64,000 bases of DNA from Cannabis sativa (lineage: Eukaryota; Streptophyta; Magnoliopsida; Rosales; Cannabaceae): assembly GCF_029168945.1 (NCBI RefSeq), contig NC_083601.1, forward strand, positions 16,706,160 to 16,770,159. The letters are read 5' to 3'. Position 1 is the first letter of the stretch, and each line of letters starts with the position of its first letter. The notes beneath the pieces were generated by a model. It did no database searches. It saw only the letters and a program-made list of their open reading frames with translations, and was not told the DNA's origin. The position numbers and the translations under genes are program-made. This document shows positions 29,954-41,184 of this stretch, one piece after another.

Positions 29954-30032
29954 TATACTATTTGTTAATGTTGCAAAATGATTTACATATATATATAATA
30001 TTTTGAAAAATAATATTTAGAGAATTTGCAAA

Positions 30033-30150
30033 GGGAAATTTCATTATTTGCCCTTAATAATATAACCTATATCAAAATTTATACCCTTTAATAATTTGTA
30101 CAAATTTATTCCTCTAATTTTAAAAGATTCCTAAAATACCCCTAAATTAA
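30033..30150. repeat. left terminal inverted repeat of the MULE
   Basis: Pairs with 40975-41095 in inverted orientation with many substitutions and small indels. It is followed by CT-rich low-complexity blocks with repeated CAGACGTTCCCTCTCTC units (30165-30275), mirrored by the GA-rich tract at 40889-40935 on the right. Confidence 0.85.
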
Positions 30151-30579
30151 ACTTTCCCTCTCTCAGACGTTCCCTCTCTCTTTCTGACGTTCCCTCTCTC
30201 TCTCTCTCTCTCTTCACGAACCAGTCCTCCTCTCTCTCTCTCAGACGTTCCCTCTCTCTCTCTCTCTCTCTGTCCTCCTCACCCCTCACGAACCCACGAA
30301 CCCACGAAACCCAAGGCGACCGACGACAACGAAGAGGACGAAGACCCACGGCGGCCCACGGCGATCCACGACCACGACCACGAACCACTGAACCACTGAT
30401 CCAATCCAATCCAACGGTAAGTTTTTTTCTGTTTAAATTTTAGAAATTTCAATGCGAATTTGTGTATGTTCTTCAGATAACATTGTTTTAGATTGTATAT
30501 GCGAATCTAGATGTCAATTATTGCATGTTGTATATGTTGGATATGTTTCAATGGTGTTTGTGTGTTTTTACAGCGTTAT

Positions 30580-30910
30580 CGATGAAATGTCGATAGGATA
30601 TCGATATGTATAGGTTTCTGTTTATGTGTTTGAGCATTGTTGTCGACAAGTTGTCGACAATTTGTCGATGGTTTTACCTTGTTGATGTTATGTAGCTTTG
30701 CCATGTAATGTCGACAATTTGTCGACTATATGTCGATAGGTTGTCGATAATAAGTTGTATATGGTAGTTTACTGTTATAACGTCGACAATTTGTCAACAA
30801 TATGTCGATAGGTTGTCGATAATAAGTTGTAGTTGATTCTTTTGGTAGTTTACTGTTAGAAAGTCGATAATTTGTCGACTATATGTCGATAGGTTGTCGA
30901 TAGGGAAGTT
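30580..30910. repeat. TGTCGA-motif array, left outer
   Basis: Dense irregular repeats of TGTCGA, TTGTCGACAA, ATGTCGATA and GGTTGTCGATAA. Two longer units of about 65-80 bp (TAGTTTACTGTTA... plus four motifs) are repeated in tandem. Same motif family as the three other arrays of the MULE. Confidence 0.8.
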
Positions 30911-30934
30911 AGAGTTGATTCGTATGGTAGTTAA

Positions 30935-32825
30935 TGTTGGAAATTATTTTACCAGGATCTTAGATCTACTCACAAGTATGTTTATTAACATCCTAAATAA
31001 GAACTTTCTAAAACGATGAAATAAACACATATAAAGTTTAAGAAACCTTACATTGGGTGCAGCGGAATATAATGACTCCTTCCGTTCAGATATCTAGCCC
31101 TTGATTCCTTTCTGTAGCAGAGCATTATCAATATCTGAACCTGGATCTCTTTCTCTGAATCCTTGATGCTGAATCTCCTTTGCTGATGATCTTTCTTCAC
31201 GATCTTCCTCACTATGATTGAGGTATCACTTGCTGTGTGTGGGCACTACTCATACACTAAGGATTTCGAAATATTGAACAAGAAGAGAGAGAGTGGTCAG
31301 CTAAAGATAGGGAGAGAGAAGGCTCAGTTTTTCTGATTCAGAAAGTCTGAAGAAAAGTGTTATTTTCCTGAAGCCTTCACTATCTATTTATAGCATTCCA
31401 CTAGGGTTAGATTTGAATTATATGGCATTAAAATAATGAAAAAATCAACTTAAAATAGCTATAAAGGTGGCCGGCCATACACTTAGTGGATTGGGCCTTG
31501 GGCTTTGCAATTTTACAATTTTAACACCTTTTGTATCTGATTTTCTCAAAAATGCCAATTTCCTAATTCAATCATTTAAATGCCAATTCTAACTATTTAA
31601 TAACTATAAATAATTATTAAATAATATTGTCATTTATCATATTTATTAATTGAACCATACAAAGTATCATAATTAACAAATATGCCCCTATAAACTCTTT
31701 CTTTACAATTTCGCCCTTACTTAGTGAAAAATTCACAAATAGACATAGTCTAATTTGAGAATTATAATTGATTAATCAAAACCAATTACATGAGTCTTAC
31801 AAGCAATATTATCTCAACTAGTGGGGGGACCATGGGTCTATATAACCGAGCTTCCAATAAGTAGATCAAGAATTTAGCACTAAAATTCACTAACATATTA
31901 ATTCTTCGTTGAATCCACGCATAGAACTTAGAATTGCACTCTCAGTATATAGAATGCTCTATATGTTCCACCATATAGACACATCATTAGTTATCCATTG
32001 TTATAATCCTAATTTGATCAATGATCCTTTATATGAATGATCTACACTGTAAAGGGATTAAATTACCGTTACACCCTACAATGTATTTATTCCTTAAAAC
32101 ACTTGACCCCGTATAAATGATATTTCAGCTTATGTGAAATGAGTACTCCACCATTTATGTTCGTTTGGTCAAGCTCGAAGGAGATCATCCTTTTCTTACT
32201 ATTTGCCAGATAGAAGCTATAGATTCCATGTTTATGATAGCGCTCCCACTCAATTGCACTACCGTGTTCCCAAAATGTACGTATCACCCTGACCTAAAAG
32301 TAGGCTTAACTAACAAATCAAAGAACACGAATAGCCTTTCAAGATTGAGCCTAATCATAACAGGATTAAGATCATTTGATCTAGGATCAACTAGGCGATA
32401 TTGACTTGAATAGATTTTACGGTAAGTTTAATTAAATCTAAGTCAAAGTTCAATATCGGTCCCTTCCGATGCATACTCCATGCATCCAACCTGAGCTTTA
32501 CTTTAACCAATGTTCTGGAAAGAACATAGTATTTCTCCAAATACAAGTAAACTCTTGTTGTAGATTATCATATCAGTAAAACCCTGTGTCTGATAAATCT
32601 AGGAAACTTTATTCACATAGTCATGTTTACTTTCCAATGTGTTGACGGCACAATAAACAGGATCAAGTATGTGAAAAGGGTTTCAGATGAATTTATACAT
32701 TATGTACATATAATTATGAAATAAATCATGTGAACCATGCAACATTAAATGTTATTTCTGATCTATATTAATAAGTAAATCTGATTATATTGAAATGAGT
32801 TTTATTTAGGGCATAAAACCCAACA
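30935..32825 (-). mobile_element. solo LTR (1.9-kb copia family) inside the MULE
   Basis: Reads TGTTGGAAATTATTTTACC... to ...ATAAAACCCAACA, the reverse complement of the LTRs at 47949-49842 and 56097-57989. Flanked by the 5-bp duplication GTTAA (30930-30934 and 32826-32830), so it is an independent insertion reduced by LTR-LTR recombination. It splits the left TGTCGA array of the MULE and is therefore younger than the MULE insertion or arrived with its donor. Confidence 0.93.
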
Positions 32826-32830
32826 GTTAA

Positions 32831-33010
32831 TTGGTATAATGTCGACGATTTGTCGACTGTATGTCGATAAGTTGTCGATGTTGGTCGTTTGTCACTGCTC
32901 TTATGATAATGTCGATAGCATGTCGATTGTATGTCGACGATTTGTCGACCAGTTATGAATGTTTGATAATGTCGACAGAATATCGACATGATGTCGATGT
33001 TATGTCGACA
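32831..33010. repeat. TGTCGA-motif array, left inner
   Basis: Continuation of the array at 30580-30910 beyond the solo LTR. Contains GTCGACGATTTGTCGAC, ATGTCGATT and GTCGACATGATGTCGATG-like repeats, and ends 50 bp before the Ulp1-like start codon. Confidence 0.8.
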
Positions 33011-33059
33011 TTTCTTAACTTTTTTGACATTTAAATTTTTTTGGTCTTTGATTTTTCAG

Positions 33060-35931
33060 ATGGCTCCCAAACTCATAATTTCAGCACCCGAGCATTTTAC
33101 TGGCCGCGTCACATATAGAGGCACTGGAATTTTTGCAAAAATCAAAGCTCGGTTTGAGGAGTTCAATCTGAATAACACGGCGAAGGAAAGCCGTTTCGGG
33201 AGCTTTTTGAATGCCGTACCCTTGACATTCTCCTCGGTGTTATTTCACCAGCTTATGCTCCACAAAATGAAGGTGGATGCCCAGGAGGAGTTGAGGATGC
33301 GGTTTTACGTTGGTCGGAAGGAGGTCAGATTCGGGGTGCTGGAGTTTGCACTCATTACAGGCCTGGACTTCTCCTCGGGGCCAACAGAAGAGGAGAAGGC
33401 TGCGCAGGTCGCGCGCTCGGGGTCAGACCGATTGATCAACAAATATTTCAACCGGTCTGATAGTGTGAAGACAGAAGCACTCCAAGATAGGTTCACAAAC
33501 TGTGAGAACCCGGAAGACTTGTACAAGGTCGGCTTGTGCTTGTTTGTGGAGTCAGTGCTTCTGGGCCGCGAGGCAAACACGCTGATTACGCCTCACATAC
33601 TTAGATATGTGGAAGACCTCGAGTTCTTCTTCCGGATTCCTTAGGGGAAGCACTCATTCGCCAGACTCATGCACTCGCTTCAAAAAGACATGTTGAAACA
33701 GAAGGCCAACTACGAGAAGAAGCTGAGTTCGGATATTCAGCACGAGTGCAAATACACAGCATATGGCTTCGCACCTGCAGTACAATATTGGGCGTACGAG
33801 GCCATTTTGGAGGTTGGGAAGAGGTATGGCAAGAATCACAGGATTCGGTTCCCCAGGATGCTTAGCTGGACGAGCAAGGGCGATATTGGGAAGAAAGACG
33901 TCAGCGCATTATTTTCTAGACGGGTATGTCGTTCACTTATGTTCAGAATAATTATTTAACATAAATGCTTGTAATAAATGCTAAATGGTTCTATTTTGAT
34001 ATTTTTTGAACCATAAACAGAATCTTGAAGTGGTGAAGGGACTACTTCCACGGACAGAGGAGGAGGCATTTGTGAGGACCATATCTTACGATGGTGTGGA
34101 GAACCTGGTTGATGATGGTGTGGATGACACAGAGGCTGAGGCAGGTAGTCAGGTACCAGAGACTCAGGTCCCAGACACTCAGGAAACAGACACTCAGGTA
34201 CCAATTTTTGGAACTTTTATTTTTATGTCTTTATTTTTTATTGTTTTTGTTTTGTGATATTTGTTACATTGTGGAATTATCGTATGCTTACCGTATTTTT
34301 TTGATATATATTTTTTCAGGCCACTGGTTCAGAACCTCAGCCCAGTGCACCATCTTCATCAGGCGTTCGGGGTGCTGAGTACACTGATTTAGTGGCGAGG
34401 TTGGATAGGATTGAGGCTGACACTCAGGGTCTGTATGCTGCTCATGTCGAGCTGAAGAAGGCATACGAGACCAGCCATGTAGAGCTGAAGGGTGGTCAGA
34501 ACGTAATTATGGAGCAGCTCAGAGACATATTGGCCATGTTGAATCGTCCGCCAACGACGGCCTTCAAGCACGGAGGCCCCGGCAGATCCATCTACCCCAC
34601 CACCACCGCTTCACCCCCGCAGAAGAGGAGGAGGTCTTCCCCGACGATTACGATCCTTATGAGGGAGCTCCAGCGACTCCGATCGAGGCACAACCTGTTA
34701 TCCATGTACATGACACCGAGTCGCAGGGTGAGATTCTGTCGATAGAGGCACAACCTACAGTGGTTAAGAGTCGGAAGAGGAAGAGAAAGCCTCCTGTATG
34801 GTTCGGTGACTATACGGAGATGAAGAGGAGACATAGGCCATCTTTGACTTTTGATCCCCTGGAGCCACCGGATGAGAAATTGTTAACCACTTTCCGAAAG
34901 TGGTGTGTTGGACTCATTCCGAACCACCGACTTCGGGATTTGAGAAGTGGTGATTACGGTCCAGGATTCTTTTGGATAATGCTCACACCAAAGGAATGAC
35001 TTACAGATGACGTAAGTAAAGTATTTTTTAATATTACTTCACTTTACAACTTTATGTGCAATTAATATATTTTTTTGTCTAACTGACATTTCCCTTTATA
35101 TGCAGCATATAGATGCAGCAATGCATATGCTGAGGAGGCGACGCACCGACTATCCACTGACATTTCCTCAGAAGGGTGTCATTCTCTCCACATTCGTGAC
35201 CAGCATGATCAGCAGTGCATGGACGAGCCACAAGGGTCCGAGGAGAAACTTTGTGTGGGAGGATTATATCCTGGACTACTGCAGAGGGGTTCATAAGGTA
35301 TTGTTTTAGTAAGATTTTAAATGTTAATTGTTTGGGAGGATTATTATGGTTTGTTAATTGTTTCGTTGTTCTCTGTAATTACAGTCCCAAGTCTTTGAGA
35401 GATGGAGGGGTAACAAGTTTATTTACTTCGTTCTGAACCTTCCCGAGGTAAGGCACTGGGTCACACTTGAAGTCGACATAGAGCTGTGGAAAATTAATGT
35501 CTACGACTGTGATTCCAGCGTCTGTCATTGGACCGCCATGGAACCCATCCTGAAGACTTGGGGAGAACTGCTGCCCTCGCTAATCCTTGCAACCGGGGAA
35601 TTTCCACATAACAACCAGATCATGGCGTTAACTAACAGGGACATCACGGTGCTTCCAAAAATGCATTCGACTCGAGCCACTCACGACTTAAGTCCGAAGT
35701 CAACAACCAGGTACATAGCGATAAAAAAGTACTATAGTATATCAATATGTTTTACGTTAGACTGACTTTACATTTGATATATTTGCATTTAGTGGTGATT
35801 GTGGCGTCTATTGCATTGAGTATGTGGAGCATCTCATGATGCAACGTGGATTGACCGATGTGACGCCAGACCGGATAGCTATGTTTCGTCAACGGTGGTG
35901 TGTTGATTTATTTTACCAAAATGTCGGCTGA
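33060..35931 (+). pseudogene. DUF1985 / Ulp1-like cysteine protease gene of the MULE, broken
   Basis: Exons as read: 33060-33923, 34021-34197, 34320-35011, 35106-35297, 35385-35710, 35793-35931, all with GT..AG. The first exon looks like DUF1985 (FGSFLNAVPLTFSSVLFHQL, then VRFGVLEFALITGL). The middle is an acidic, Gln/Thr-rich linker, then a basic KSRKRKRKPP patch. The last exons hold the C48 protease fold: His in VRHWV (about 35450), Asp in INVYDCD, Cys in SGDCGVYC (about 35800). The catalytic triad is intact, but two stops (TAG at 33642, TGA at 34997, both where Trp is expected) and two frameshifts between 34560 and 34620 disable it. Such proteases cleave SUMO-type modifiers. Their role in transposons is unknown. 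Confidence 0.85.
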
Positions 35932-36596
35932 TTATATGTGTAATTATTGGGACATTGTATATTTTGTGTAATTAACATTACAGTTATGTATATATAGACT
36001 TTCTCTTCGTTCAAATTATGATAATTATTCGTGGTTTCAAATATAAAATATCGATATTATTCAACAAAAATAACTATTAAACCTAAAAATAATTAAAATA
36101 TTTAAAAAATATTCAACCTCGACATTATTTTAAAGCAGTTTCGAACCTGAAATAGCGATAATTATTCATAGTTAGACCAGTTACTAGTGAAGACACTCCC
36201 CATACTTCAGTATTATATATTAGACCACTCTCTATCACTCACATTACAGTTATGTTAGACCAAGTGAAGGTAAATTGGATAATGAAGAATTATATATAGT
36301 ACTTATATATTCAATATACCATATATATGTCTATTATGCTATATTATATAGGTAGATAAATTAATATGAACTGTGGTAAGTAAAAAAGATATATTTTCGG
36401 AGAATGTGCGCCATTTAGATATTTTCGAGCAATAAAGAAACTCAGGAGGCTGCAAATGAACTCATTTAGATATATATATATATAATTTCGTTAGCACATG
36501 AAAATAAAAACAAATGATGACAAAATATGCATCATTATAGTATATCAAATTTCCCAATAGAAAACATGTTATTACAACGAATAAGTACAGGACGCC
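35932..36596. other. AT-rich spacer between convergent MULE genes
   Basis: No coding sequence seen. Serves as shared 3' flank for the Ulp1-like gene (+) and the transposase (-). Confidence 0.5.
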
Positions 36597-38627
36597 TCAA
36601 ATGCGGGCTTTGCATGTTGCTCTGTTGTGGCCTGAACTGCCACAGCGGCTGCAGTTTCGTGGTACGAAACCTTTTTTATCACCAGACGGGAAACAGTTCT
36701 CCCGTCTTCTTCCAGCGTTGCTTTTTCTTGGACGACCTACAGGCTTCTTTTCCACAGGTACCCCAACTTTCATATTCTTGATGTGTTCTGGGAGAACCCA
36801 ATCATCCTCGTCACCAGCAAGATTGATGGTATCATCATAAATCTTCCTCCACGTTTCCTTTGAATAATAAGGTGAGCAAAGCGTGTACACACTTGTGTTC
36901 GTTTTCAATGCCGCGGCACATGCATGAAGGCAAGGGAGTTTCAATAACGTGAACACGCCGCATGTGCATGTTCTTTCAACTAGATTCACATCACCACCTC
37001 TTTCACCGTTAGGTCCCCTACCAACGTTATAGAAATTGGCTCCATTTCGTTGGACGCGCCTGTACCTTGCATTTTCATGAATTTTTGCCAAGTTTTTTTC
37101 AAAGAGCGTGGCCAAAGGGGTGGTACATTTGTCAGCATTTTCGAGGCGATCAGCGAACCACGATTGGAGTGTGAACCTGATAAATTCAACCAAAGTAGTT
37201 ATTGGATATTTCCTGAACTCTTCTGTGACACTATTGAAGCTTTCAGCAGCGTTGCTCGTCATGATGTTGTATCTATCGCCCAAACAATAAGGGTGAGCCC
37301 ACTTCTCAAACCCTATACTCTCCACATATGCAGCAATGGCCGGATTCATCTTTCTAAGCTTCTCGAACTCTCTATCGCATTCAGTCTTCGACCATGCGTA
37401 AGCAACATTATATATTTGGTTGTGAAAAGCATCAGTCTTGAATTTGGCGTTCACGTTCATAACAATGTGGTGATAGCATGCACAGTGGACTGCTTCGGGA
37501 AAAACGAGTTCAACAGCATGATCAATGCTTTGATGCCTATCTGACACAAACACTAAGTTCTCAACCACGCCAATTGCTACCCTCAACTTCTGTAAGAAAT
37601 ACGTCCAGGAGTCGTTATTCTCACTGTCAACGATACCATAAGCAACCGGCAACAATTGGTTGTTCGCATCGTATGCCACAGCAACTAACATTATACCGCC
37701 GTACTTCGTCTTCAAGAAGGTGCCATCGATACTCAAAACAGGACGACAAAAAGAAAAGCCCCTTCTACATGCACCGAGTGATATAAAACAGTACTTGAAC
37801 CGCTCATCCTCTAAGTACAAGTCAGTAATGGTACCTGGATTCTTCTGTTCCAGCATGTACAAGTACCCAGGAAGCTTCATGTATGAAAACTCAGGCGTAC
37901 CCCTAGCATACGTAAGTCCCATCTCCCTGCACCTCCACGCCTTCACATAACTCATACTGATACCATAGTTGTCAAACATGTCCCTCTGTATGTCTTTAGC
38001 CTTGTACTTAGTTCCATCTTGGGTGTACTTCCCCTTAATAAGGTGGCCAACTACCCATGGTGCTGCTTGACGGTGATCTGAACGTCTCGCATTCAAGTTA
38101 CATGTGTGTTCATTGTGAAATACAGTGACCTCAAAGTTGTCAGAATTCATCTTCTTCCTCCCCCTCAATCTCCATTTACAATCTGGAGCCTTGCATGTAA
38201 CGTACAACACATCAGGGGATGACTTCTTCACCATCCACTCGAAATTGTTATTAAGTGCAAACCTACCCACTACTTGTCTCAGTTCTTCCTTGTTTTCATA
38301 AAAATTACCAAGCTCTATCACCCCTGCTTCCTTACTTTGTAAACAAGTAGTTAGCTCATGATTTTCCATTATATCTTCCTTTGTCCACATGGGAGCTTTG
38401 AACTTGGTACAAACTTCAAAAGAGGAGAACGTTGAGAAGGTTGCATGACGAGCATGTTCTTCAGTTCTACCTTGTCGACTACTGCTAGTTCCAGGTGTAG
38501 TGCGATTTTCACTACGAGGTTGTCGTTCTCGCTGTGTACCTTGGTTACTCGGTACACATTCTAACCTCAACGATGGTCCCGCTACGGCTTCATCAACTGC
38601 CAAATCATGTTCATCGTCCATATTCAA
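36597..38627 (-). CDS. MULE transposase (mudrA-like), 676-aa open frame
   Basis: Uninterrupted 676-codon frame. Residues 105-180 match the MuDR N-terminal DNA-binding type with a Cys/His site (CKAPDCKW, then FHNEHTC). Residues 295-400 are the MULE transposase domain: SIDGTFLK gives Asp301, FVSDRH gives Asp363, and Glu462 in NAAESFN is the likely third acidic residue. A SWIM zinc finger follows (Cys554, Cys556, Cys566, His568), then an AT-hook-like GRPRK and a C-terminal CCHC knuckle (Cys659, Cys662, His667, Cys672). The original protein was longer: an in-frame TAA at 38697-38699 separates this frame from about 170 more N-terminal residues. All catalytic parts survive, so a truncated product could still be made. 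Confidence 0.92.
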   Translation of the reverse strand: MNMDDEHDLAVDEAVAGPSLRLECVPSNQGTQRERQPRSENRTTPGTSSSRQGRTEEHARHATFSTFSSFEVCTKFKAPMWTKEDIMENHELTTCLQSKEAGVIELGNFYENKEELRQVVGRFALNNNFEWMVKKSSPDVLYVTCKAPDCKWRLRGRKKMNSDNFEVTVFHNEHTCNLNARRSDHRQAAPWVVGHLIKGKYTQDGTKYKAKDIQRDMFDNYGISMSYVKAWRCREMGLTYARGTPEFSYMKLPGYLYMLEQKNPGTITDLYLEDERFKYCFISLGACRRGFSFCRPVLSIDGTFLKTKYGGIMLVAVAYDANNQLLPVAYGIVDSENNDSWTYFLQKLRVAIGVVENLVFVSDRHQSIDHAVELVFPEAVHCACYHHIVMNVNAKFKTDAFHNQIYNVAYAWSKTECDREFEKLRKMNPAIAAYVESIGFEKWAHPYCLGDRYNIMTSNAAESFNSVTEEFRKYPITTLVEFIRFTLQSWFADRLENADKCTTPLATLFEKNLAKIHENARYRRVQRNGANFYNVGRGPNGERGGDVNLVERTCTCGVFTLLKLPCLHACAAALKTNTSVYTLCSPYYSKETWRKIYDDTINLAGDEDDWVLPEHIKNMKVGVPVEKKPVGRPRKSNAGRRRENCFPSGDKKGFVPRNCSRCGSSGHNRATCKARI

Positions 38628-38696
38628 ATCTACAATAGGATCGTTATTGTAGAAGGGTGTATCGAACTCTTCAAACTGATGAAATCCTGTCGCTTC

Positions 38697-39205
38697 TTAT
38701 TCTTGCCCTACATTGGTCGGAACCTCTAAATTGGTCGGAACCTCTAAATTGGTCGGAACCTCTAAATTGGTCGGAACCTCCTCATTCACACCAATCCCAA
38801 CATCTGTTTCGGGAACGCAAGACCCTACCACACTTCGAGGGAGAGGATTAGTAGGCGGCGTAGGCTCCGAATTCCCAACTTTTCTCACCTTGGTCACGAA
38901 TAATGGCATAAACTCTGTATTTGACATTGTTGCCCTCATCTCTAAGAACGTTCTCAGTTGGCGTTCTCTCTTAATAACCTCTGGCGCAACCATTTTTCCC
39001 TTCATGTACAAGGAACAAATCTCCAACTTTAAATCATACGCTACCGGATCAACTTCCAACTCTTCATATAAATTTTGTCGCAGTTCTTGTAGGGTATTCT
39101 CAGTTGTAACTGTCAATGTCAAGCTGCTATTTGCTTTGTAGATCCAATTATAATTCTCACATAACCAAACACCATCGTACGATACAACAAGGAACACTTT
39201 CTCTC
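38697..39205 (-). pseudogene. N-terminal part of the MULE transposase, cut off by a stop
   Basis: In the same frame as the 676-aa transposase, joined to it through one TAA. Starts after a splice-acceptor-like TTGCAATTGCAG, reading EKVFLVVSYDGVWLCE, a PB1-like N-terminal domain usual in this MULE group. Its end carries four EVPTN-type hexapeptide repeats from an 18-bp tandem repeat (38717-38780). The upstream non-coding exon was not located. Confidence 0.75.
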
Positions 39206-39264
39206 CTGCAATTGCAAACCAAAAAAACAAGGTGAGTAAAGGAAAAAACACCCAAAAAAAATAA

Positions 39265-39660
39265 AAATCGACATCCCATCGATATCAATCGACATAATGT
39301 CGATAATCACAACAGCAGAAATTAGGGCACTAATTGTCGACATTGTGTCGACATAATATCGACATAACGTCGACAACCACACCAAGCATGCTCGCCATCG
39401 ATATAACATCGACATACCATCGACATTCAATCGACAAACACACAGTGCATGCGTTTCGTGTTTTTACGGTTACACATTTAATGTTAATAAATTTTACCTA
39501 CGTTCCAAACAACCCTTCCCAACTGACACGTTGCATGTCAGACACGTGTCCTATCGACAAGCTATCGACATGACGTCGACATGGTATCGACAAATAAGTT
39601 AGCAGTGTCACTAAATTGGCATGTTGTCGACATCATGTCGACATAGTATCGACATTCAGT
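39265..39660. repeat. TGTCGA-motif array, right inner
   Basis: Many copies of TCGACAT, ATCGACAT, GTCGACAT and TGTCGA in both orientations, in two blocks (39265-39440 and 39550-39665). Lies between the divergent transposase and 110-aa gene, so it occupies their shared promoter region. Confidence 0.8.
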
Positions 39661-39751
39661 CGACAAATACACCATTTCATGCGTTTTACCTGTACAGTTA
39701 CACATTTAATGACCATTAAATTTTCCTACATTCCCAACATGTTTACTGCTC

Positions 39752-39759
39752 TATAAAAG
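39752..39759 (+). promoter_or_regulatory. candidate TATA box of the 110-aa MULE gene
   Basis: TATAAAAG, 92 bp before the start codon at 39844, followed by a CT-rich leader typical of plant 5' UTRs. Confidence 0.5.
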
Positions 39760-39843
39760 CAAATCCCTTTCTTATTCATAAGTGCTCTTGTCTTCTACTT
39801 CTCTCTTACTCTTAAAAATTTCTCTTATTCTTAAGTTCTAAAT

Positions 39844-40176
39844 ATGGCCCCAAGAAAGAACAAAGGCAAATTCCCCATCTTAACTCCTGAAGAGCTGAAG
39901 CAGGAGCCTGATGTTGGCATAATTACTCCTGAAATGCAGAAAGTTTTTGACGCCCAAAGAGCTTTCGAAAGAGAACGATGTGGGAACGAGTTCAGGTTCA
40001 GGCAACTTGAAGCACATTTTTGCAAAACTGGTGTATGGCCGGCTCCACCACCAGGGTTCCCCGAAGGATGCCGTCGTTGCAAACTAGGCATCTTTAACGG
40101 TAAACCGGTGAAGCCTGGAACATTATGCAAGTATTGCAAGGCTCACCCACAAGCCAAAGAATTTAAAAAAAAATAA
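39844..40176 (+). CDS. third MULE gene: 110-aa basic protein with paired CxxC
   Basis: Intact single-exon frame starting MAPRKNKGKFPILTPEEL and ending in a Lys run. The N-terminal half is charged and helical (ITPEMQKVFDAQRAFERER). The C-terminal half holds Cys76-x2-Cys79 and Cys95-x2-Cys98, separated by GIFNGKPVKPGTL, which resembles a small zinc ribbon. It sits divergent from the transposase between two TGTCGA arrays, with its own TATA box. No stops, although the neighbouring Ulp1-like gene is broken. I do not recognise the family. Position recalls the accessory gene mudrB of maize MuDR, but I see no sequence link. A DNA-binding or regulatory role is a guess. Confidence 0.72.
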   Translation: MAPRKNKGKFPILTPEELKQEPDVGIITPEMQKVFDAQRAFERERCGNEFRFRQLEAHFCKTGVWPAPPPGFPEGCRRCKLGIFNGKPVKPGTLCKYCKAHPQAKEFKKK

Positions 40177-40340
40177 TTTGTTATGTTATGGCTTGTGGTG
40201 AGTTTTATTTAATGTTTGTTTTTTTTTTATGAACTTTATTTTCTGTTTTTTTAATGTTTTTTTTTTCTTATTTTAATGAAATTTCCCTTTTATTTTATGT
40301 TATTTTAATGTTATGTTATGTTATTTACGGCTTTTTTTCA
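40177..40340. other. 3' flank of the 110-aa gene
   Basis: T-rich, with repeated TTATGTTATTTTAATG units near 40255-40320. No gene seen. Confidence 0.5.
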
Positions 40341-40575
40341 TTTTCATCGATATTTTGTCGACATGGTGTCGATAAAATATCGACAACTTCTAAAAAGAGA
40401 TAAATGCTTGTTGTCGACATGCTGTCAACAACTATCGACAAAATGTCGACAAATTGTAAATAATATGTTTGTTGCTTATTGTCGACATAACGTCGACATT
40501 ATGTCGACATAACGTCGATAATGGTCGTCACTGACTTTTCCTTTTGTAATCATCGACAAACCATCGACATATTAT
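40341..40575. repeat. TGTCGA-motif array, right outer
   Basis: TGTCGACAT, GTCGATAAAATATCGACA, ATGTCGACATAACGTCGA and related repeats. Mirrors the left outer array in position relative to the terminal inverted repeat. Confidence 0.8.
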
Positions 40576-40974
40576 CGATAACACTGGAAAACCCAGAATT
40601 CGACTGAAAACCAGATCTGCCAGATCTCAACAATTTCAGACCAAAAAGTAGCAGTTCCAACAAATAACACACATATAACAATTTTAAACTACATAAAGTC
40701 AAACAAAATGCTTAAAACACAATTTACCCATTATAATGGTGTAAGATTCTTGAGTGATATTGGGTTGTGCTTCGGTTTTCCACCAACACCCACCGAGAAA
40801 ACAACCATTCAAGAGGAAAGAAAGAGAGGGACGAGAGAGTGGGACGGACAGAGGGAATTTTTTTGATAAATTTTTCAGTTTTTTCTAGAGAGAGAGAGTG
40901 GTGCACGAGAGAGAGGGAAGAGAGAGAGAGAAAGATCAATTTCAGATTTTAGCTATTTTATTTATTTATTTTTT

Positions 40975-41095
40975 TTGAAAAAAAAAGGGTAAAATGGGAA
41001 GTTCATGTAATTAATGGACTAAATTTGTACAAATTAAGGGAGGGTATAAATTTTGATATAGCTTGTATTATTAAGGCCAAAAAGTGAAATTTCCC
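40975..41095. repeat. right terminal inverted repeat of the MULE
   Basis: Inverted partner of 30033-30150, ending GTGAAATTTCCC. Followed at once by the TTTGCAAA duplication. Confidence 0.85.
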
Positions 41096-41184
41096 TTTGC
41101 AAAAGGGTGTGGAAATGTATGTAGAAAATCATTTGGTAAATGATTATCATAAAGACACTAGTGTGTGTACACAAAATGTACAAA

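Follow-up and report, generated by a model that had tools for sequence, protein, structure and literature searches.

A Cannabis sativa MULE combining a VANC-like DUF1985 gene with tetrads of a CpG-cored motif in predicted introns

The MULE at positions 30033 to 41095 of a 64,000-nt window of Cannabis sativa DNA (the whole stretch analysed; GCF_029168945.1, NC_083601.1, 16,706,160 to 16,770,159, forward strand) carries a DUF1985 gene, a mudrA-like transposase gene, a third small gene and arrays of the motif WTRTCGAY, whose sites follow one another every 11 bp, form groups of four (tetrads) and point along transcription. We consider it likely that this is a VANC-type MULE bearing terminal inverted repeats (TIRs) and a Ulp1-like domain, whose ORF1 product is a VANC-like anti-silencer acting through the tetrads. 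This assignment builds on the genes, the copies, the low variation of the motif cores, and homology and fold match to VANC21, from which we infer the introns, protein-motif binding, cooperativity and anti-silencing.

Results and discussion

Alignment of the element's ends and comparison with other copies place the TIRs at 30033–30150 (plus strand) and 40981–41095 (minus strand), flanked by the 8-bp target-site duplication TTTGCAAA at 30025–30032 and 41096–41103. The inverted arms (30025–30141 and 40987–41103) span 117 nt and are 81% complementary. Twenty copies were fetched for the border test, 14 of them showing both ends within the stretch, and in 11 of these 14 an exact flanking repeat of 7–10 bp adjoins GGGAAATTTC...GAAATTTCCC or a close variant; none was found in L012, L021 or L026. 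One of the 11 sits in a TA repeat, leaving 10 informative cases of the target duplication, about 8–11 bp beside fixed ends, by which a MULE is recognised, and the inverted ends, duplication and borders proposed in an earlier sequence-only reading therefore stand. Because flanking repeats elsewhere are copy-specific, TTTGCAAA is the window copy's own duplication, palindromic though it is, and does not belong to the inverted repeat. The search for further full-length copies recommended in that reading retrieved 16 copies showing both ends; every one of them has the three genes and the arrays, and one (L016) lacks the C48 exons.

ORF1 (33060–35930, plus strand), defined by profile matches and copy comparison, encodes a VANC-like DUF1985 protein with a C48 (Ulp1-like) C-terminus. 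Its predicted exons, from copy comparison, lie at 33060–33923, 34021–34197, 34320–35011, 35106–35297, 35385–35710 and 35793–35930, and are preceded by a predicted 5'UTR intron (30417–33059; AACG|GTAAGT ... TTTTTCAG|ATG) whose donor is present in all 8 and whose acceptor in all 9 of the sequences compared, which are close copies. The DUF1985 domain scores well above threshold in the window (Pfam, E 8.4e-15, 55.4 bits against a cut-off of 35.1) and is homologous to VANC21 in sequence and fold, as a VANC protein should be; missing matches to other folds in VIA carry no evidential weight. This upholds the DUF1985 half of the proposed DUF1985/Ulp1-like protease. The Ulp1/C48 match in the window exon is weak (Pfam, E 0.016, 15.5 bits, below the cut-off of 20.7). 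In the window copy a stop and a frameshift break the ORF1 frame. Residues resembling a His-Asp-Cys triad are visible in the C48 region by eye only, and the Cannabis relative P0034 carries PF02902.

The main exon of the mudrA-like transposase (36597–39205, minus strand) matches the Pfam profiles MULE (1.8e-26), DBD_Tnp_Mut (3.4e-8) and SWIM (3.3e-8), all above cut-off and as expected of a MULE, which confirms the domains noticed earlier. An in-frame stop breaks the frame in the window copy. Translation is predicted from copy comparison to start at ATGG|GT (40728–40731, minus strand), immediately before a predicted first intron (39206–40727, minus strand) with its donor in 14 of 14 and its AG acceptor in 14 of 16 compared sequences. 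Selection on the coding regions was gauged by pN/pS, given here as pooled pairwise, tree-free values. Values below 1, the mark of purifying selection that the earlier reading had proposed as a check, were obtained for the DUF1985 exon (0.294, 22 sequences), the C part of mudrA (0.377, 15 sequences) and gene 3 (0.538, 17 sequences); the middle of ORF1 gives 0.640 (20 sequences). The two C48 exons tested (1.02 and 1.08, 20 sequences each) speak against the selection claim. Because the tested C48 exons show values near 1, the protease half of ORF1 may be dispensable.

In a motif scan, array A occupies 30577–30904 (left part) and 32840–33010 (right part, three tetrads) on the plus strand; array B (39266–39665, five groups) and array C (40345–40580, four groups) are on the minus strand. 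The element contains 74 occurrences of TGTCGA/TCGACA, whereas 100 first-order Markov simulations yielded 5 on average and never more than 12, which confirms the TGTCGA arrays noticed earlier. Fifteen groups with at least three of four sites are present, against 0 in each of 200 first-order Markov simulations; the remaining window contains 0, and genome-wide there are 8,036 matches to three-site runs against 0 with a reversed control. Their description as divergent promoter arrays has to be abandoned, because they sit between conserved splice signals: array A is bounded by the donor and TTTTTCAG|ATG, arrays B and C by ATGG|GTAAGT and GCAG|GAGAGAAAG, which puts them in the first introns predicted for ORF1 and mudrA. 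We reject slippage of tandem repeats as the only cause, because it would give varying run length, and runs end at four in distinct A, B and C tetrads of the main copies; the related loci L031 and L042 are less strict, 10 of 22 and 3 of 5 runs of at least two sites, respectively, being four long.

Motif cores are about four times less variable than spacers. A point against our reading is that CpGs outside the arrays do not change fast everywhere, with 0.010 at 12 positions of the right subterminal part and 0.035–0.078 in genes. The half-site TGTCNN of the auxin response element DR5 requires its G2. In the arrays, G2 of TGTC is as variable as the spacers (84% G, 15% A, pi 0.113), whereas A6 hardly varies (pi 0.017); TGTCNN recognition would predict the reverse. 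We rejected a DR5 identity on these grounds, and it is highly improbable that the tetrads are natural DR5-like elements bound by host auxin response factors, even though two TGTCNN in the same direction with 5-nt spacing, as DR5 is described in the part of PMC10690724 consulted, give exactly the 11-bp pitch seen here.

The arrays aim inward from both ends and start some 0.54 and 0.52 kb inside the element, and a 2.5-kb derivative without the transposase gene retains inward arrays at both ends. Both features would suit subterminal transposase binding sites that pair the two ends in transposition, with ORF1 a VANC relative reading something else. Such a role is unlikely, as array B lies 1.4–1.8 kb from the right end, the perfect tetrads of array A range from 3 to 8 among copies, and the VANC21 match predicts motif arrays at such places.

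Gene 3 (39844–40176, plus strand) is nested antisense in the predicted first mudrA intron and encodes a 110-aa CxxC...CxxC protein. It is the third small gene of the sequence-only reading and is conserved (150 matches scored among 452 candidates). This conservation, its location between arrays B and C and a zinc-binding-like pattern recognised by eye make it a candidate reader of tetrad DNA, which would leave ORF1 to act elsewhere. We think this decidedly unlikely: the protein has no Pfam or PDB match and no recognised fold, its predicted model being too poor (pLDDT 58), and relatives 72–74% identical to P0004 sit 3.5–3.8 kb downstream from a different type of DUF1985 gene, as at C9:8752929 (3.8 kb). 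Among the C1 matches listed, the one DUF1985 match with the same profile span (10.241 Mb) lacks a three-site run in its vicinity, although gene 3 itself was not seen at that locus.

Judged from sequence comparison, it is probably the ORF1 protein that reads the intronic tetrads; the link between motif and protein is correlative, and the transposase or gene 3, sharing the same family history, could be the reader. The DUF1985 domain would bind WTRTCGAY, and sites spaced by one helical turn, four to a group, would seat several ORF1 molecules side by side on one DNA face. Bound within the ORF1 and mudrA first introns, these would remove silent marks from this MULE family only, both genes would stay expressed, and the transposase would mobilise the element and its coding-deleted derivatives. 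Same-direction arrays of a short motif in non-coding regions are what VANC action calls for, though family specificity here rests on few families: the other DUF1985 families compared are few and distant (27–28% identity), and a search for target motifs in them found none, the candidate GTTGTT being dropped as it occurs in their introns at chance level. Families at middle distance include database relatives 41–66% identical to P0006. A bolder and rather doubtful version makes the tetrad a quantal docking site, on which four VANC-like molecules interlock along one side of the DNA and together read four CpGs, or shield them. If true, the anti-silencer would sense or protect exactly the cytosines methylated by the host, through a cooperative target code built on CpG cores, for which the portions of the literature consulted give no counterpart in VANC21 or VANC6. 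For working out how VANC-type proteins single out a particular transposon family and lift its silencing, the tetrads offer a defined target, and a solved VANC21-DNA structure is available for comparison. The Cannabis search gave 132 DUF1985 loci. More than 100 copies in a crop genome carry this sharply defined, apparently selected target beside its likeliest reader gene, and the motif could act as an address for locus-specific demethylation.

The element was compared with VANC and MULE systems in sections of PMC5735166, PMC10398659, PMC6446971, PMC13317346, PMC12859917 and PMC12844716. Like VANDAL21/Hiun with VANC21 in Arabidopsis, it combines a transposase, a third gene and a homologous DUF1985 protein with same-direction short motifs in introns and other non-coding regions that show tandem-repeat turnover. 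It differs in its CpG-cored WTRTCGAY (YAGTATTAY in VANDAL21) and in the grouping of sites by four at 11-bp pitch, groups that the sections consulted do not describe for Arabidopsis VANC targets. VANDAL6 likewise has a related VANC, VANC6, and tandem motifs specific to its own family, AGTTGTCC and AGTTGTAC, which lack CpG (PMC5735166, in the part consulted). VANDALs often lack the clear inverted ends seen here (PMC6446971, in part). VANDAL denotes a Brassicaceae MULE clade whose members group by their transposases, and we file the element only as VANC-bearing and not as a VANDAL. ORF1 differs further from VANC21 in its C48-like domain, and the element also in having gene 3 nested in the predicted first mudrA intron. 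MuDR of maize Mutator has TIRs, 8–9-bp duplications and two large genes that run inward from opposite ends, a layout the Cannabis element shares; the second gene of the Cannabis element is VANC-like instead of mudrB, and its predicted introns hold the tetrads. In gene content, motifs aside, it would resemble Arabidopsis KIU/Kaonashi, a three-gene MULE having a VANC-type gene with a Ulp1 domain (PMC13317346, in the part consulted), given its putative C48 domain; the tested Cannabis C48 exons are weakly constrained. Ulp1 also occurs in MULEs of melon, rice and grapevine. As far as these sections go, Ulp1-bearing VANC genes in MULEs are already known, and what sets this element apart from VANC21 and VANC6 is the CpG-cored tetrads at 11-bp pitch. 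Judged by listings, the literature on DUF1985 or Cannabis Mutator MULEs yielded no published description of the element; for TGTCGA in Cannabis the one item listed was, by its title, unrelated. The sequence-only reading did not include the link to VANC anti-silencing proteins or the arrangement of four sites at 11-bp pitch.

The window copy is disabled by stops in ORF1 and mudrA and the ORF1 frameshift, and in 0 of 23 sequences are all three genes open together when exon borders are held fixed. The 11-kb length supposed earlier is not native: a nested LTR-like insertion (TGTTGG...CCAACA, 30935–32825) contributes 1,891 of the 11,063 bp. It interrupts array A and is flanked by the duplication GTTAA (30930–30934 and 32826–32830); without it the element measures 9,167 bp. 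Sequences resembling the insertion are also present in L012 (partial), L013, L020 and L025.

Results and discussion

The ends of the window MULE (30033-41095) are inverted repeats, and in a searched genome of 770,685,239 bp, in which the window lies on contig C1, the left end has at least 53 matches (best 40 of 927 first-look candidates scored). Twenty copies were fetched as 9.9-kb stretches, and two diverged copies were added later. Both ends are present in the stretch in 14 of the 20, and 11 of these are flanked by exact repeats of 7-10 bp, one of them uninformative because it falls within a TA repeat. Because other copies bear their own such repeats, TTTGCAAA beside the window copy is its own target duplication, bearing out the inverted ends and duplication proposed in the sequence-only reading. 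The 11-kb size proposed there is not native: an LTR-like insertion of 1,891 bp (30935-32825, TGTTGG...CCAACA, 5-bp duplication GTTAA) splits the left array, and without it the element measures 9,167 bp; 11 of the 14 two-ended copies span 8.7-9.0 kb and three are shorter. Sequence like this insertion is also present in L012 (partial), L013, L020 and L025, all fetched stretches.

Matches to ORF1, mudrA and gene 3 are all present in 16/16 two-ended copies among the 22 fetched, some with internal deletions, so that the three-gene content stands in other copies except that one of the 16, L016, lacks the C48 exons. For six of the 22 (L009, L013, L015, L020, L022, L025) the right part lies outside the fetched stretch; each has, by eye, a gene-3 match on the same strand ~13-27 kb downstream, as if insertions interrupted the element. 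The left flank in L020 (280-289) ends AATTTGCAAA, letter for letter as at the window copy, which may reflect chance or an insertion preference common to both.

Six coding exons are predicted for ORF1, the first (from 33060) encoding DUF1985 and the last ones the C48-like domain; P0006, a protein of the family, is LOC115696517 of Cannabis sativa, apparently on contig C8. In the window copy, ORF1 is interrupted by a frameshift and an in-frame stop, and mudrA by a stop. An open frame of each gene is found in some copy, and none of 23 sequences has all three open with exon borders held fixed. The predicted mudrA start, ATGG/GT near the right end, is followed by GCAG/GAGAGAAAG, the spliced product giving MGEKVFLVVSYDGVW; the donor of this predicted intron is conserved in 14/14 sequences and the acceptor AG in 14/16. 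Inside it, on the opposite strand, lies the 110-aa gene 3 (39844-40176, + strand). The mudrA N-terminal part contains an 18-bp tandem repeat (38708-38797; E-V-P-T-N-L repeated).

The purifying selection (dN/dS below 1) that the sequence-only reading set as a check is supported by pooled pN/pS for the DUF1985 exon (0.294), mudrA (0.377) and gene 3 (0.538), but not for the two C48 exons tested (35106-35711; 1.02 and 1.08, where the gene's own DUF1985 exon has 0.29), the protease half of ORF1 being relaxed or diversifying. Genome-wide, gene 3 has at least 150 matches (best 150 of 452 candidates scored) and the DUF1985 exon, searched as P0006, at least 132 (best 132 of 1,817). A gene-3 match lies downstream on the same strand within 30 kb of at least 84 of the 132 listed DUF1985 matches, 70 of them at 3-8 kb; among the matches listed, one of the 132 has a gene-3 match on the other strand and none has one upstream. 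The protein database yields five matches to gene 3, four from Cannabis sativa.

In arrays A (30577-33010), B (39266-39665) and C (40345-40580) the TCGA core repeats every 11 bp in groups of four, or tetrads, with a typical step of 60-84 bp between successive groups. In 23 sequences, perfect runs have at most four sites; with one mismatch allowed, 292 of 341 runs have four sites, 26 three, 17 two and six five, counts that come from related copies and are not independent. The window's 11 perfect tetrads have differing spacers, and in copy L041, whose arrays B and C match the window's at only 73-77% in alignment, all eight runs of at least two sites have four. At less regular loci the four-site share falls to 3/5 (L042) and 10/22 (L031). 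The arrays had been read as divergent promoters; instead, array direction follows transcription of the surrounding gene in 276/278 called groups (21 undecided). Genome-wide, TRTCGAY-N4-TRTCGAY-N4-TRTCGAY has 4,042 forward and 3,994 reverse matches, which include overlapping and both-strand matches and so represent fewer actual groups; the backwards-read control pattern has none on either strand.

Array cores are constrained. Between-copy pi is 0.026 in the core, versus 0.110 for within-tetrad spacers and 0.114 outside (Mann-Whitney p 1.4e-12, positions taken as independent; 23 sequences for A2, the right part of A, 18 for B and 17 for C). The core mask follows the window copy, which biases this comparison mildly. 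In the oriented profile W T R TCGA Y, pi is 0.018 at the first T, 0.113 at R, 0.010-0.040 over TCGA and 0.085 at Y, with R and Y swapping almost only purine for purine and pyrimidine for pyrimidine. Within arrays, CpG variation is 0.013-0.050 in cores versus 0.109-0.341 at other CpGs (28 positions in all); outside arrays it spans 0.010-0.078, and therefore no general CpG effect is demonstrated. The 11-bp TGTCGA pitch (30577-33010, 39266-40580) is that of the DR5 auxin element and may mislead motif scans. The constraint pattern of array positions argues against auxin factors as array readers.

A 2,472-bp derivative (L031:57-2528) is bounded on each side by a left-type end and flanked by the duplication TTTCAAAA; it retains a DUF1985 fragment and 12 groups, 11 of them callable and 11/11 inward. 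Retention of arrays despite gene loss fits a cis role, in anti-silencing or transposition alike.

A second, distant DUF1985 MULE family, with an intron-rich gene (identity 28% in DUF1985, 37% in mudrA), adjoins L016 (L016:1-3260) and occurs in L032. Tetrads are absent from 13.2 kb at the element beside L016 and from 3.4 kb at each of eight DUF1985 loci of that type, and no target motif of its own was found for the family in L016:1-3260 and L032. On C1, as far as pattern places were listed (to 12.76 Mb), runs adjoin each of the listed own-family gene matches, which lie at 10.760, 12.757 and 12.761 Mb and make up two elements; among the matches listed, those of other DUF1985 types (4.634, 7.187, 10.241, 11.745 Mb) have no run within 0.5 Mb. 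Further C1 runs lie at 2.09, 2.84-2.86, 5.34, 6.05-6.06, 8.45, 10.77 and 12.70 Mb, of which only that at 10.77 Mb adjoins a listed gene match (the 10.760 gene, 6-7 kb away). These comparisons link the motif with the MULE family and its relatives, but as yet with no single one of the family's three proteins. The cluster of motif runs at C1:6052929-6060581 has a full-element layout and no gene match among those listed; it may represent a relative that has diverged further.

The kinship of ORF1 with VANC is well supported, and the best, though unproven, explanation has ORF1 reading the tetrads. Eudicots are already reported to have VANC genes that bear Ulp1 and come with family-specific motifs (PMC13317346, citing Sasaki et al. 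2022). Within the literature searched, a target combining a CpG core, helical phasing, four sites and measured constraint appears new, as does a conserved small gene nested in a transposase's predicted intron. Another DUF1985 type has a gene-3 relative 3.5-3.8 kb downstream (C1:26893298, C6:61023553, C9:8752929, C11:231409), probably too short a distance for the rest of ORF1 and a mudrA gene, and may represent a transposase-less family.
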